From Leifsonia aquatica (GTDB taxonomy: Bacteria > Actinomycetota > Actinomycetes > Actinomycetales > Microbacteriaceae): DNA of 64,000 bases. The stretch is taken from assembly GCF_014190775.1 (NCBI RefSeq), contig NZ_JACHVP010000004.1, forward strand, positions 248,001 to 312,000, in the 5' to 3' direction. The position numbers and the translations under genes are program-made. Under the pieces are notes generated by a model. That model was not told where the DNA came from and made no database searches. It worked only from the letters and a program-made list of their open reading frames with translations. Positions 51,935 to 57,776 of the stretch are shown here, piece after piece (position 1 is the stretch's first letter; the number at the start of each line of letters is the position of its first letter).

Positions 51935-53593
51935 ATGCATCGCACCGTCGCGCGCGACCCGAACGCGCGCACCCGTTCCACCTCCCGTCCCGCCCGCCTC
52001 GTCGCCGCGCTCGTCGCCGGCCTCCTCGCGGTCAGCGGCCTGCTCGTCGCGACGGCTCCGGCCGGCGCGGCCGAGATCCCCGGCGCCATCTCGAACGTCA
52101 CGACGGACAAGTCGTCGTACGGCTACAGCGAGAAGCTCGTCCTGAGCTTCGACTGGGCGGTTCCGGACGGCAGCGCGCCCGGCGACACGTTCTCGCTGAC
52201 CCTGCCGCCCGAGCTCGCCGCCGCGAGCCTCGCCCGGTTCACCCTCGACGCCCCGGACGGCACGCCGATCGCGACCGCTGCCTGGAACGGCCGCACCGCC
52301 GTCTTCACCCTCACCGACTACGCGGCGACCCACGACGACGTCGCCGGCACCGGGCACTTCACGGCGCAGTGGGACCACACCACCGTGACGGAGACCGGCG
52401 GCCCGGTCGAGCTGACCTTCGGCTCGACGCTGACGACCGTCACGATCGCGCCGAAGCCGACGCCCACGCCCTGCACCACGAACTGCGGGCCGCCGACCGT
52501 GCCGACCTCGCGCGGAGCGTGGAAGGGGTCGGGCTGGACGGACGGCTCGTACGAGGGCACGCGGGACCCGTCGAGCAACATCTCGTGGATCGTTCAGCTG
52601 CCGGGCGACCAGACCGGATACTCCGGACCGGTCGACGTCGTCGACACGATCGGCGCCGGGAGCGCGATCGACTGCCCGTCGCTCTCCGTCACCGCCCGCG
52701 CCAGCCTGGCGGGAGGGACGCCCAGCTCCCCGGTCGACCCGTCGCGCTACACGGTCTCGTGCACGGCCTCCGGCCTCCATGTCGTGCTCGATGCGGTGCA
52801 CGCGAGCGAGTTCATCGACCTCCGCTACACGGGCACCATCACCGACCAGCGTCTCGGCACGTACTCGAACGCGGTCACGATCAGCTACCCCGGCACGACC
52901 GTGACGAAGAACTCCACGATCAAGCGGACCTCGGCCGGCGGATCGGGTGACGGCGACCAGAGCGTCTCCGTCGGCGACCTCGTCTGGCTCGACACGAACC
53001 GCGACGGCCTGCAGAGCGCCGGCGAGCAGGGGATCCCCGGCGTCGTGCTCGTGCTCACCGGCCCGGACGGCGGACCCGTGACGAACGTGGGAGGTGCGCC
53101 GGTCGGCCCCGCGACGACCGACGCCGACGGCCGCTACCTCTTCCCGGGGCTGCCCGTGCTCCCGGCGGGGCAGCACTACACGGTCACGCTCGACCGTGCG
53201 GCATCGGCCGCCGCCCTGGCGGGACTCACGCCCACCACCGCGGGCGCGGGCGCCGACCGCGCCATCGACAGCTCGACCTGGCTGGCCGAGTCGGGCGATC
53301 TCACCACGAACCGCGCAGCGGACCTGACGCTGGACTTCGGCTTCGTGCGCCCGGTCGTGACGCCGACGGAACCGGCCGAGCCGAACGCCGGTGGCACGAC
53401 CCCGGGCACTCCCGCGACCCCGGCCCCGGGTTCGCGAGGCGCCACTCCGGTCGCCGCCGCTCCGGTCGCGTCGCTGGCGCACACCGGCTCCGACGTGGTG
53501 ACCCCCCTCGCGGCCGCGGCGGCCCTCATCGCGCTGGGACTGGCGCTCGCCGCCACCGTCTCATGGCGACGCCGCCGGGCCGAGCGGAGCTGA
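51935..53593 (+). CDS. LAHTG-anchored surface protein with SdrD B-like domain
   Basis: A 552-residue exported protein. Signal peptide ends near AGAAEIPG (residues about 43-49). Residues 50-320 resemble the Ig-like N2/N3 modules of Sdr/adhesin proteins; residues about 340-470 contain an SdrD B-type domain beginning SVSVGDLVWLDTNRDGLQSAG and ending near LDFGFVRP. A Pro/Thr/Gly-rich wall-spanning stretch leads to the sorting signal LAHTG, a hydrophobic segment and RRRR. LAXTG is the motif of class E sortases in high-GC actinobacteria. It is divergent from the fused sigma factor and ended by a strong stem-loop. Confidence 0.88.
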   Translation: MHRTVARDPNARTRSTSRPARLVAALVAGLLAVSGLLVATAPAGAAEIPGAISNVTTDKSSYGYSEKLVLSFDWAVPDGSAPGDTFSLTLPPELAAASLARFTLDAPDGTPIATAAWNGRTAVFTLTDYAATHDDVAGTGHFTAQWDHTTVTETGGPVELTFGSTLTTVTIAPKPTPTPCTTNCGPPTVPTSRGAWKGSGWTDGSYEGTRDPSSNISWIVQLPGDQTGYSGPVDVVDTIGAGSAIDCPSLSVTARASLAGGTPSSPVDPSRYTVSCTASGLHVVLDAVHASEFIDLRYTGTITDQRLGTYSNAVTISYPGTTVTKNSTIKRTSAGGSGDGDQSVSVGDLVWLDTNRDGLQSAGEQGIPGVVLVLTGPDGGPVTNVGGAPVGPATTDADGRYLFPGLPVLPAGQHYTVTLDRAASAAALAGLTPTTAGAGADRAIDSSTWLAESGDLTTNRAADLTLDFGFVRPVVTPTEPAEPNAGGTTPGTPATPAPGSRGATPVAAAPVASLAHTGSDVVTPLAAAAALIALGLALAATVSWRRRRAERS

Positions 53594-53662: not shown

Positions 53663-53691
53663 TTGCGCATTCGTGACGATCGGCGCAAACT
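53663..53691 (+). promoter_or_regulatory. Promoter and dyad of the kynurenine operon
   Basis: TTGCGC (53663-53668) and CAAACT (53686-53691) are 17 nt apart and the ATG of kynA follows after 6 nt, suggesting a leaderless mRNA. TTGCGC is also the left arm of a dyad with GCGCAA at 53683-53688, so an operator may overlap the promoter. The PaaX-like gene at the operon end is a candidate binder. Confidence 0.5.
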
Positions 53692-53697
53692 TGCAGC

Positions 53698-54558
53698 ATG
53701 AGCGTGGATGGGAACACCCGGGACATCGAACCCGACATCGTCACCGACTTCCGCGAGCGGATGTCGTACGGCTCCTACCTGGACCTCGACACGCTCCTGG
53801 GCGCGCAGCACCCGGTGAGCCGGCCGGAGCACCACGACGAGCTGCTGTTCATCGTGCAGCACCAGACGACCGAGCTCTGGCTGAAGCTGGTGCTGCACGA
53901 GCTCGAGTCCGCCCGCGACCTGCTGCGTGCCGACGAGCTGGCGCCGGCGCTCAAGCGCATCGCGCGCGTCAAGCACATCCAGAAGACCCTCACGGAGCAG
54001 TGGTCCGTGCTCGCGACGCTGACGCCGACCGAGTACGCGCAGTTCCGCGGATTCCTCGGCAACTCGTCCGGATTTCAGTCGTACCAGTACCGCGCCGTCG
54101 AGTTCGTCCTCGGCAACAAGAACGCCCGCATGCTGAGCGTGTTCGCGAGCGACCCCGCCGCGCACGCCCTGCTCGCGGAGTTGCTGGAGCAGCCGAGCGT
54201 CTACGACGAGTTCCTCCGCTACCTCGCCCGCGCCGGTCATCCCGTACCGCAGGCCGTGCTGGAACGCGACGTCACCCAGGCCCACGTCTTCACTCCGGAG
54301 CTCGTACCCGTCTTCCGGGACATCTACGAGAACGCGGATGCGCACTGGGCGGAGTACGAGGCGTGCGAGGAGTTCGTCGACCTGGAGGACAACTTCCAGC
54401 TCTGGCGGTTCCGGCATCTCAAGACGGTGCAGCGCACCATCGGCATGAAGATCGGCACCGGCGGCTCCTCGGGCGTGAACTTCTTGCAGAAGGCGCTCGA
54501 GCTGACCTTCTTCCCCGAGCTGTACGCCGTCCGCACCGAGATCGGCACACCCCGGTGA
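53698..54558 (+). CDS. kynA: Tryptophan 2,3-dioxygenase
   Basis: A 286-residue heme enzyme that opens the indole ring of L-tryptophan to N-formylkynurenine. Signatures: [47 protein letters not shown] and [22 protein letters not shown], the last carrying the heme-ligating His. Length and motifs match bacterial TDOs. First gene of a four-gene operon (kynA, amidohydrolase, kynU, PaaX-like), all overlapping; its stop overlaps the GTG of the amidohydrolase. Confidence 0.95.
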
Positions 54559-55679
54559 GCCCGGACGCGCCCACGTTCAACGCGGCCTCGTTCGACGCGG
54601 TCTGGACCGGCGACGGCTTCCGCGGTCCGACCACCTTCCGCATTCGCGACGGCCACCTCCTTCCGAGCGACCCCGCCCCGCGCGACGCCGGCCACGGCAC
54701 CGCCACCGCGACCCACCACCTGGGCGGCACCCTCTTCCCCCGCCTGACCGACCACCACGTGCACCTCGGGCTCGTCGATCCCGTCGCCCTGTTCTCGGGC
54801 GGGATCACGCACGTCGTCGACCTCGGCTGGGACCCGGCGATCGCGACCACCTGGCTGCGCGACGACCCGCGCGGCCCCAGCGTGGCGATCGCCGGCGCCC
54901 TCCTCACCGCTCCCGGCGGCTATCCCGTGCGGTCCGGCTGGGCTCCCCCCGCCGCGGCGCGCGAAGTGGGCGGCCCGCGGGAGGCTCGGCGAGCGGTGCG
55001 TGAACAGGTCATGGCAGGAGCCTCCCGCATCAAGGTCGCCCTCAACAGCGAGGCGGGCGAAACGGTGGATGACGCCACTCTCGACGCGATTGTGGAGGAA
55101 GCTGTGACCTCCGGGCTGCCGGTCGTCGCCCACGCCCAGGGCACCGGGCAGACCGCCCGCGCCGTCCGCGCCGGCGTCACCCAGCTCGCCCACACCCCGT
55201 TCAGCGAACGCGTCCCCGCCACCGTCATCGACGACGCCGTCGCAGGCGGCGTGAGCTGGATCTCCACCCTCGACATCCACGGCTGGGGCGCCCAGACCCG
55301 GGATCACGACACCGCCGTCGACAACCTGCGCCGCTTCCACGCCGCCGGCGGACGCGTGCTCTACGGGACCGATCTCGGCAACGGCCCCCTCCCCCTCGGT
55401 GTGAACGCCCGCGAGCTGACGGCGCTCCTCTCCGCGGGCCTCGATGCGACGACCGTGCTCCGCTCGATCGCCGGCGACCCCGGAGACGACCACCTCGCCG
55501 ACGAGGCCGCGATCGGCTCCCGCCTCGCCTGGATCCCCGCCGCGCCTCCTCGCGACACGGCCCAGCTGCCCGCGTGGCTCGCGACCGCTCGCGGGCTCCA
55601 TGCCGTCGACCTCACCGCAACCGACCTCCCCACCCCCTCCTCCACTCCCATCACGAGCACCGAAGGACCGCTCCCATGA
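54555..55679 (+). CDS. Amidohydrolase, candidate N-formylkynurenine formamidase
   Basis: A 374-residue amidohydrolase-superfamily protein (imidazolonepropionase/prolidase-like branch) with a complete binuclear metal set visible: H68-V-H70 in DHHVHLG, K160 in SRIKVALN as possible carboxylated Lys, H193 in VVAHAQG, H213 in QLAHT and D273 in YGTDLGN. It lies exactly between the dioxygenase and kynureninase, overlapping both by 4 nt, where the formamidase step is needed. No KynB (cyclase family) or alpha/beta-hydrolase formamidase gene is in the window. I infer that it deformylates N-formylkynurenine; this is not established for the family. Confidence 0.75.
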
Positions 55680-56944
55680 CCGACGACACCGCCACCACCG
55701 ACCTCCTCGCGCCCGACCCGCTCACGGTCGCCCGCGCTCTCGACGGCGCAGACCAGCTGGCCACCTACCGCGAGCGCTTCGTCGGGGTGCCCGACGGCAC
55801 GGGGGTCACCGCCTACTTCGACGGCAACTCGCTCGGCCGGCCCACCCTCGCGAGCGTCGAGCGCGTACAGCGCTTCCTGGTCGACGGCTGGGGCGGCCGC
55901 CTCATCCGGGGCTGGGACGAGGAGTGGATGGAGCTGCCGTTCACGATCGGCGACGCGCTCGGCGACGCCGCACTCGGCGCCGGGGCCGGTCAGACCTTCA
56001 TCGGCGACTCGACCACCGTCGTCCTCTACAAGCTGGCGCGCGCCGCCGTCGACGCCCGGCCGGGGCGCACGCAGATCGTCCTCGACACCGACAACTTCCC
56101 GACCGACCGCTACCTGCTCGACGGCATCGCGCGCGAGCGCAGCCTCGACCTGGTCTGGATCGAGGCCGACACGGAGGCGGGCGTCACTCCCGAGCAGGTC
56201 GCGGCGGTCGTCGGCCCGCAGACGGCGCTCGTCGTGCTGAGCCAGGTCGCATACCGGTCCGGGTTCCTCGCCGATGTGCCGGCGATCACGCGGATCGCCC
56301 ACGACGCGGGCGCGCTCGTGCTGTGGGACCTCTGCCACTCGGCCGGCTCCGTCCCGGTGGAGCTGGACGCGTGGGGCGTCGACCTCGCCGCGGGCTGCAC
56401 CTACAAGTACCTCAACGGCGGACCGGGATCCCCCGCGTTCGGCTACGTCGCCGCGAGCCTCCAGAGCGAACTCACGCAGCCGATCCAGGGGTGGATGGGC
56501 GCCCGCGACGTGTTCACGATGGGTCCGGAGTACCGGCCCGCCGACGGCATCCGCCGGTTCATCAGCGGCACCCCTCCGGTCGTGGGGATGCTCGCCATGC
56601 AGGACACGATCGCGATGATCGCGGAGGCCGGGATCGACGCGGTGCGCGCCAAGTCCGTCGCGCTCACCGAGTATGCGGTCGCGCTCGCCGACGAATGGCT
56701 CGCCCCGCTCGGCGCGACGCTCGCCAGCCCGCGGGAAACGGAGCGGCGCGGCGGACACGTCACGGTCAACCACCCGGCGATGCGCGAGGTGACCGCCGCC
56801 CTCTGGGAGCAGGACGTCATCCCCGACTACCGCGACCCGAACGGGCTGCGCATCGGGCTGTCGCCGCTGAGCACGAGCTTCGAGGAGGTGTGGCGGGGGA
56901 TGTCCGCCGTGCGCGACGTGCTCGGCGAGCTGACGCATGACTGA
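55676..56944 (+). CDS. kynU: Kynureninase
   Basis: A 422-residue PLP enzyme that cleaves kynurenine to anthranilate and alanine. PLP lysine is K244 in GCTYKYLNGGPG; YFDGNSLGRP, DSTTVVLYKL, DTDNFPTDRY and LWDLCHSAGS are family signatures. ATG at 55676 overlaps the amidohydrolase stop and follows GAAGGA. Its end overlaps the PaaX-like regulator start by 8 nt. Together with kynA it makes tryptophan a carbon/nitrogen source or supplies anthranilate. Confidence 0.95.
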   Translation: MTDDTATTDLLAPDPLTVARALDGADQLATYRERFVGVPDGTGVTAYFDGNSLGRPTLASVERVQRFLVDGWGGRLIRGWDEEWMELPFTIGDALGDAALGAGAGQTFIGDSTTVVLYKLARAAVDARPGRTQIVLDTDNFPTDRYLLDGIARERSLDLVWIEADTEAGVTPEQVAAVVGPQTALVVLSQVAYRSGFLADVPAITRIAHDAGALVLWDLCHSAGSVPVELDAWGVDLAAGCTYKYLNGGPGSPAFGYVAASLQSELTQPIQGWMGARDVFTMGPEYRPADGIRRFISGTPPVVGMLAMQDTIAMIAEAGIDAVRAKSVALTEYAVALADEWLAPLGATLASPRETERRGGHVTVNHPAMREVTAALWEQDVIPDYRDPNGLRIGLSPLSTSFEEVWRGMSAVRDVLGELTHD

Positions 56945-57776
56945 ACCCGCACTCCGCGAGGATCTCGAGGCCACCTCCGGCAGCGCGACGGCCCTGCTGC
57001 GGACGCTCGTCGGGAGCATGTTGCGCCCGCTCGGCGGGTGGATGTCGGCCGCTGGCACGGTGCGCCTGCTCGGTTCGCTGGGCATCCCGCCCGCCACGGC
57101 ACGGTCGAGCATCGCGCGGCTCGTCGCCCGCGGTGTGCTGCGACGAGCGCCCGGCGACGGCGGAGCGCCCGGCTACTCCCTCGACCCGGCCGCGGTCCCG
57201 ATGCTGGAGCGCGGCGACGCCCGCATCTTCGGCGAGCGCCGCCCCGCGACGGCGTGGTGCCTCGTGTCGTTCTCCTTCCCGGAGCGGCAGAGATCGCTGC
57301 GGCACCAGCTGCGCCGGCGGCTCGCCGCCATCGGCTGCGGCACGGTCGCGGACGGCCTGTGGATCGGCCCTGCCGCGCTCGAGCGGGAGCTGGCGGAGGT
57401 CGTGGCCGAGTTCGACGCCGTCCTGTTCGTGGACGCGGCTGTCCGCAGCGACCTCTCCGCGGGACTCGCGTCCTGGTACGACCTCCCCGCCATCCGGCGC
57501 GTGCACGAGACCTTCGTCGACCGGTTCGGCGCGGTCGACGTCTCACCGGCGATCGGTGACGAGGAGGCATTCGCGCTCTGGGTGCGCGCGCTCGACGAGT
57601 GGCGCGTGGTCCCGTACCGCGACCCCGGCCTCCCTCCCGCCGCGCTGCCGGCCGACTGGCCCGGCGACGTCTCCGACTCTCTGTTCAGGAGCCTGCGCGA
57701 CGCGCTCGAGCAGCGGGCCATCGGCCACGCCTCCCGCATCGCCGGCCCGGACCGCGTGCCCGCCGTCGCACGGTAG
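56937..57776 (+). CDS. PaaX family transcriptional regulator
   Basis: A 279-residue regulator. N-terminal winged helix ([44 protein letters not shown]), a central PaaX cap domain ([24 protein letters not shown]) and a C-terminal dimer domain, as in PaaX, the repressor of phenylacetate catabolism. Here it is the last gene of the kynurenine operon, so it probably senses a tryptophan-degradation intermediate. Overlaps kynU by 8 nt. Confidence 0.85.

Follow-up and report, generated by a model that had tools for sequence, protein, structure and literature searches.

The kyn operon and the Amh protein

The window, a 64 000-nucleotide stretch of DNA from Leifsonia aquatica, contains a four-gene operon on its forward strand whose second gene, designated hereafter as amh, is proposed to encode an N-formylkynurenine formamidase. 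The first gene, kynA (53698..54558), encodes a tryptophan 2,3-dioxygenase of 286 amino acids (TIGR03036, 405.6 bits against a cut-off of 390.7; PF03301). It is followed by amh (54555..55679), which starts with GTG and encodes a polypeptide of 374 amino acids with homology to the amidohydrolase superfamily (Amidohydro_1, PF01979, 28.1 bits, cut-off 25), and by kynU (55676..56944), encoding a kynureninase of 422 amino acids. The latter scored slightly under the cut-off of TIGR01814 (234.4 vs 246.4 bits), yet the kynureninase C-terminal domain KYNU_C was present (PF22580, 94.7 bits). The last gene (56937..57776) encodes a PaaX-like transcriptional regulator of 279 amino acids (PF07848, PF20803 and PF08223 above cut-off, TIGR02277 under cut-off). 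An initial annotation of the locus had described this gene order with every junction overlapping, and the overlaps amount to 4 bases (GTGA), 4 bases (ATGA) and 8 bases, respectively. It had also stated that the operon is without a formamidase of the KynB or alpha/beta-hydrolase type; in agreement with this, none of the four operon proteins matched KynB or alpha/beta-hydrolase profiles.

Profile searches with the window Amh at E values up to 1 gave no match to the KynB family (PF04199, TIGR03035) or to alpha/beta-hydrolase Pfam families (such as PF07859 and PF20434), and imidazolonepropionase (TIGR01224) was absent among the matches. Database labels of Amh homologs, judged from the best 120 of 2243 matches, were 'amidohydrolase family', 'imidazolonepropionase-like' or 'hypothetical'. 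The complete amidohydrolase metal set reported in the initial annotation was confirmed residue by residue. It comprises H68 and H70 in the motif DHHVHLGL (codons 54756..54764, forward strand as for the following), the expected bridging and putatively carboxylated lysine K160 (55032..55034), which aligns with a lysine of Cc2672 (PDB 3mtw), H193 (55131..55133), H213 (55191..55193) and D273 (55371..55373). The four histidines are expected metal ligands by position and conservation, and D273 is expected to serve both as a ligand and as the catalytic base.

A phylogenetic analysis was carried out with the 107 rows longer than 230 residues kept from 113 amh loci. This showed that kyn-linked Amh forms a single clade of 87 rows (Shimodaira–Hasegawa-like approximate likelihood ratio test (SH-aLRT) support 100), and that a long branch lies between this clade and 20 deep actinobacterial relatives. 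Eighty of the 87 genes adjoin kynA and/or kynU; the remaining seven comprise six from one genus and one whose genome is 87% complete. All six ligands, including H68, H70 and K160, are invariant in 87/87 rows of the kyn clade, and likewise in the 20 deep relatives. When fragments were included (93 amh loci), the ligand positions departed from this where truncated or split rows have gaps and where a single fragment reads Q. Truncated or split matches in three genomes (G141, open frame of 186 amino acids, L152; G237, L159; G139, with an in-frame TAG, L174) suggest decay of the gene in some species. Y123, W129, N276 and E287 are near-universal in the kyn clade and in the deep relatives alike. H242 (55278..55280), in the motif STLDIHG just after strand 234-237 of the predicted model, is a histidine in 97% of the 87 kyn-clade rows and is not conserved in the 20 deep relatives, and is therefore a candidate residue for substrate choice or binding.

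The predicted fold of Amh is an amidohydrolase barrel. Its fold relatives, at about 16-25% identity, are Cc2672 (3mtw, Xaa-Arg/Lys carboxypeptidase), a Zn-dependent arginine carboxypeptidase (3be7), a prolidase-like protein (2qs8) and ochratoxinases (4c5y, 8ihq), all of which differ in function from the role proposed for Amh; KynB and AFMID structures were not among the fold matches listed, which carries no weight either way. Phenylurea hydrolase B (4whb) and molinate hydrolase (4wgx) are longer proteins with 17-18% identity to Amh. Both break down man-made compounds, and phenylurea hydrolase B, a structural relative of Amh, also releases an arylamine. With a carboxypeptidase and a prolidase as nearest solved folds, Amh might be a peptidase or carboxypeptidase that supplies the pathway by releasing tryptophan or kynurenine from peptides. 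Its best NCBIfam match was indeed Xaa-Pro dipeptidase (NF051886), at 59 bits and thus far under the cut-off of 500, an assignment that we rejected. A peptidase would still leave the operon without a formamidase, and the exchange of amh for an arylformamidase-like hydrolase gene in related genomes (see below) would be unexplained, which makes a peptidase role very improbable.

Just 5' of kynA lies an inverted repeat, TTGCGC-N14-GCGCAA (53663..53688, no strand assigned), in a block that is largely conserved across six Leifsonia loci. It may represent a promoter or operator and is a possible site for the PaaX-like regulator. A promoter scan found no sigma-70-like site, and a terminator scan gave one terminator-like site, at chance level. 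The gene upstream (51935-53593) encodes 552 amino acids with SdrD-like repeats and an LAHTG-type sorting signal near the C-terminus, presumably a surface protein. Five Leifsonia loci contain the same operon genes; four have the order kynA-amh-kynU-paaX, followed by a gene which we take to be purS-like, and the fifth stops at a contig end after amh.

Distribution of amh and its replacement by an AFMID-like hydrolase gene

The distribution of these genes was determined in 299 genomes of the family, taken as Microbacteriaceae from named relatives, the best of which belong to Leifsonia, and counting the window's own genome; amh profile searches scored up to 7-10 candidates per genome and the hydrolase search described below scored 30. 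A kynA gene was found in 102 of the 299 genomes, of which 80 had a full-type kynA (score >270 bits, plus G106 with a split match) and 22 were small genomes with a divergent kynA. In 70 of the 80 full-type genomes amh was located directly downstream of kynA on the same strand (the G141 copy being truncated). Of these loci 69 were read, that of G170, where kynA is split over two contigs, being left out, and 63 had the order kynA-amh-kynU on one strand; in one of the six others (L090) the contig ends soon after amh. A PaaX-like gene was seen in 25 of the 69 loci and an AFMID-like hydrolase gene in none of them within the stretch read. Among all 299 genomes, 69 had both amh (>200 bits) and full-type kynA, 11 kynA only, 19 amh only and 200 neither (odds ratio 66, Fisher p 5e-38, ignoring relatedness), an association which argues that the arrangement is not due to chance. 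The initial annotation had proposed a survey for kynA-kynU clusters carrying amh instead of kynB, and this is what was found, since canonical KynB (TIGR03035 above cut-off) was present in none of the 102 kynA genomes. In a sample from the order, amh was also found beside kynA in two further families, with two genomes each.

The other ten full-type kynA genomes had no amh match at 1e-20, and its absence beside kynA was re-checked by tblastn on the loci. The kyn clusters of six of these ten contained an alpha/beta-hydrolase gene with the motif HGG[FY]WR, located after kynU (G026, G093, G205, and G155, there behind a flavin reductase gene), after kynA (G116) or before kynA (G066). The similarity of this hydrolase to the Drosophila kynurenine formamidase (4e11) was weak (E 2e-4), and its best PDB match was annotated as 'carboxylesterase' (9x6a). 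A profile was built from seven of these AFMID-like proteins, six of them from the amh-less kyn clusters, and run on the 80 full-type and 22 divergent genomes. Scores >86 bits were obtained in eight of the ten genomes without amh, comprising the six with the gene in the cluster and two with it away from kynA (G138 and G009, the G009 match being in two pieces). None of the 70 amh genomes scored as high, the best reaching 73.6. The mutual exclusion of amh and the AFMID-like gene was significant with all genomes (Fisher p 1.6e-9) and without the six model members (p 0.002). Thus, amh is linked to kynA and kynU and, where it is missing, is mostly replaced by a gene resembling a known formamidase type. 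In the window's own genome 30 of 97 candidates were scored, and none was an AFMID-like match at 1e-10.

On a kynA tree of 79 rows, inferred by a quick method with SH-aLRT support, the AFMID-like state requires three changes, also when strongly supported branches only are counted, a number that does not tell gain from loss. G138, with an AFMID-like gene, was placed among genomes of the same genus that carry amh, so that, if the two proteins do the same work, non-orthologous replacement would be visible even within one genus. At three loci (L084, L244, L245) the kyn cluster also includes a flavin-reductase-like gene, which perhaps has a role in anthranilate hydroxylation.

KynB relatives and genomes that depart from the pattern

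Canonical KynB was found above cut-off in one of the 299 family genomes (G019), which has no kynA. A sample of 248 genomes from the order (some from the same family; 81 with kynA) gave no match above cut-off. In G019 the KynB gene adjoins kynU, with an amino-acid permease and an alanine dehydrogenase gene as neighbours (L199), a cluster that looks like one for the use of external (formyl)kynurenine. The window's genome encodes a single PF04199 protein (310 amino acids; G000:C1:253348-253983; L001:1321-2253), which scored 49.9 bits against the TIGR03035 cut-off of 223 and was rejected as a KynB located elsewhere in that genome, while being retained as a rival candidate for the reaction. It reads NTGTYLDSPYH where KynB has the metal motif HxxxHxDxxxH, and its gene is located away from the kyn genes, adjoining what is presumably an adenosylhomocysteinase-like gene.

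Such a divergent PF04199 protein, or an unspecific hydrolase, might be the formamidase, in which case Amh would hydrolyse some unrelated amide and share no more than regulation with the pathway. According to the accessible part of one report, a PF04199 protein whose metal motif is altered has esterase activity that is stimulated by metal and hydrolyses isatin weakly (PMC5341072), and the divergent protein of the window's genome therefore stays a candidate. KynB-family matches under the cut-off also occurred in 46 of the 70 amh genomes, in one of which (G146) the gene is at a distance of 3 kb from kynA, on the opposite strand. The remaining 24 amh genomes had no such match at E 0.001, the motif and location of the protein in the window's genome do not favour it, and the exchange between amh and the AFMID-like gene would be left unexplained. 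We regard this alternative as improbable, more so than the one concerning a related substrate that is considered below.

Besides these KynB-family matches, several observations weigh against a formamidase role of Amh or against the reasoning that leads to it. Nineteen family genomes contain a strong amh without kynA; in 12 of them amh is beside kynU, in six (genus g35) kynU is elsewhere in the genome, and one genome is incomplete. In a further family, two genomes (G360, G465) have amh but gave no match for kynA, with amh beside kynU in G360. Amh therefore does not necessarily receive its substrate from its own operon. Indoleamine 2,3-dioxygenase, considered as the missing dioxygenase, was matched in none of 23 kynA-less amh genomes, a result without weight since control genomes gave no match either.

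Another departure from the pattern is seen in the 22 small genomes (genera g11, g14, g31, g67 and g81) whose kynA is divergent. None has amh, none gave an AFMID-like match at 1e-10 (no positive control in the set; the model does match other genomes), and a KynB-family match was found in five, leaving 17 with none, so that a recognisable formamidase appears not to be obligatory. In each of the 12 loci read (L107-L118) the divergent kynA adjoins kynU; ATP-binding cassette transporter genes adjoin the kynU-kynA pair in L115 and L118, the two loci with neighbours classified. Two of the ten amh-less full-type genomes (G084, G262) had neither amh nor a hydrolase >86 bits, with kynU about 200 kb from kynA or on another contig. 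Twenty loci selected for the presence of kynA or amh were read in other families of the order; five had amh, five had an AFMID-like gene nearby (35-44% identity) and ten had neither in the stretch read, kynU being present in two of these ten. The flanking enzymes can thus occur without a formamidase recognised by our searches, and a gap in the pathway is for this reason a weaker argument when used by itself. Finally, amh relatives from deep actinobacterial lineages, used as outgroup, were found in 35 of 198 genomes (own counted) with about 47% identity, and kynA was near none of the 20 loci read. The wider family may therefore have another role. A divergent kynU-like gene was on the opposite strand nearby in 10 of these 20 loci (10 of the 12 loci L270-L281), and uvrB adjoined the deep relative in the one locus tested.

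The kynA-less clusters are compatible with a formamidase that feeds kynureninase from imported N-formylkynurenine, and also with an enzyme acting on another kynurenine derivative. Amh might accordingly act at the following step or have a sibling substrate, deformylating N-formylanthranilate, which would form if kynureninase cleaved N-formylkynurenine directly, or acylated or otherwise masked kynurenine from outside. A methyltransferase-like gene was present in the stretch read at 11 of the 12 kynA-less amh-kynU loci, from 11 genomes of two genera (g5, g36; L094-L100, L105, L184-L186), which fits an imported or modified kynurenine, and gene order does not reveal pathway order. Against this, kynA-amh-kynU is by far the commonest order, the genes that replace amh resemble those of arylformamidases, though weakly, and the canonical KynB beside kynU in G019 indicates that a kynA-less cluster also suits an N-formylkynurenine formamidase. 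A sibling substrate therefore seems unlikely to us, if the least unlikely of the alternatives.

Proposed reaction and relation to known formamidases

Based on the gene context and comparative data, Amh is probably a metal-dependent N-formylkynurenine formamidase (EC 3.5.1.9) with an amidohydrolase barrel, unrelated to KynB and AFMID. The initial annotation had raised a non-orthologous formamidase as a possibility, which the position between kynA and kynU, the lack of canonical KynB in the kynA genomes and the distribution of the AFMID-like gene support. In the proposed pathway KynA would open tryptophan to N-formylkynurenine, which would be bound by Amh. One or two divalent metals on H68, H70, carboxylated K160, H193 and H213, together with D273, would activate water; D273 would orient and deprotonate it, the hydroxide would attack the formyl carbonyl, and the aryl amine, receiving a proton from D273, would leave as kynurenine, with formate as the other product. 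KynU would then cut kynurenine to anthranilate and alanine. Metal binding and mechanism are proposed because of the homology of Amh to the amidohydrolase superfamily.

Two types of kynurenine formamidase serve for comparison. KynB (PF04199/TIGR03035; PDB 4co9, 4cob, 4cog) would share with Amh the reaction, the place in the kyn pathway and metal-dependent hydrolysis, whereas the two belong to different sequence families; the accessible part of a report on KynB states that it matches no known amidase or amidohydrolase (PMC4243253). Arylformamidases of the AFMID/BNA7 type (alpha/beta hydrolases with a Ser-His-Asp triad; 4e11) would likewise catalyse the same reaction, as serine hydrolases, whereas Amh would be a metal hydrolase by superfamily and has no alpha/beta-hydrolase profile match. 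The nearest precedent, likened to Amh by description and not by sequence, is the 'amidohydrolase' MymD/MyeD of mycemycin biosynthesis (513 vs 374 amino acids), which was placed between tryptophan dioxygenase and kynureninase to cleave N-formylkynurenine (PMC5867642, 2018). Deletion of myeD abolished mycemycins A and B, and the accessible part of that report describes an in vitro assay for tryptophan dioxygenase and none for MymD (PMC5867642). No report of the amh family as a formamidase was found among the open-access papers listed, in their accessible parts. Both the reaction and the superfamily are known; their pairing would be new.

We consider it likely, with somewhat less confidence than for the activity itself, that Amh represents a third structurally unrelated kynurenine formamidase, which would be the main such enzyme in tryptophan-degrading Microbacteriaceae, would occur also in two further actinobacterial families, and would have been swapped about three times with AFMID-like serine hydrolases. 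It would also feed kynureninase in organisms without tryptophan dioxygenase, perhaps from imported or photo-oxidised N-formylkynurenine. If so, Amh would fill the missing step of tryptophan catabolism in a family whose kynA genomes have no KynB above cut-off, and a function would be assigned to proteins that are at present labelled as amidohydrolase family, imidazolonepropionase-like or hypothetical. It would add one more unrelated fold to those that carry out one small reaction.
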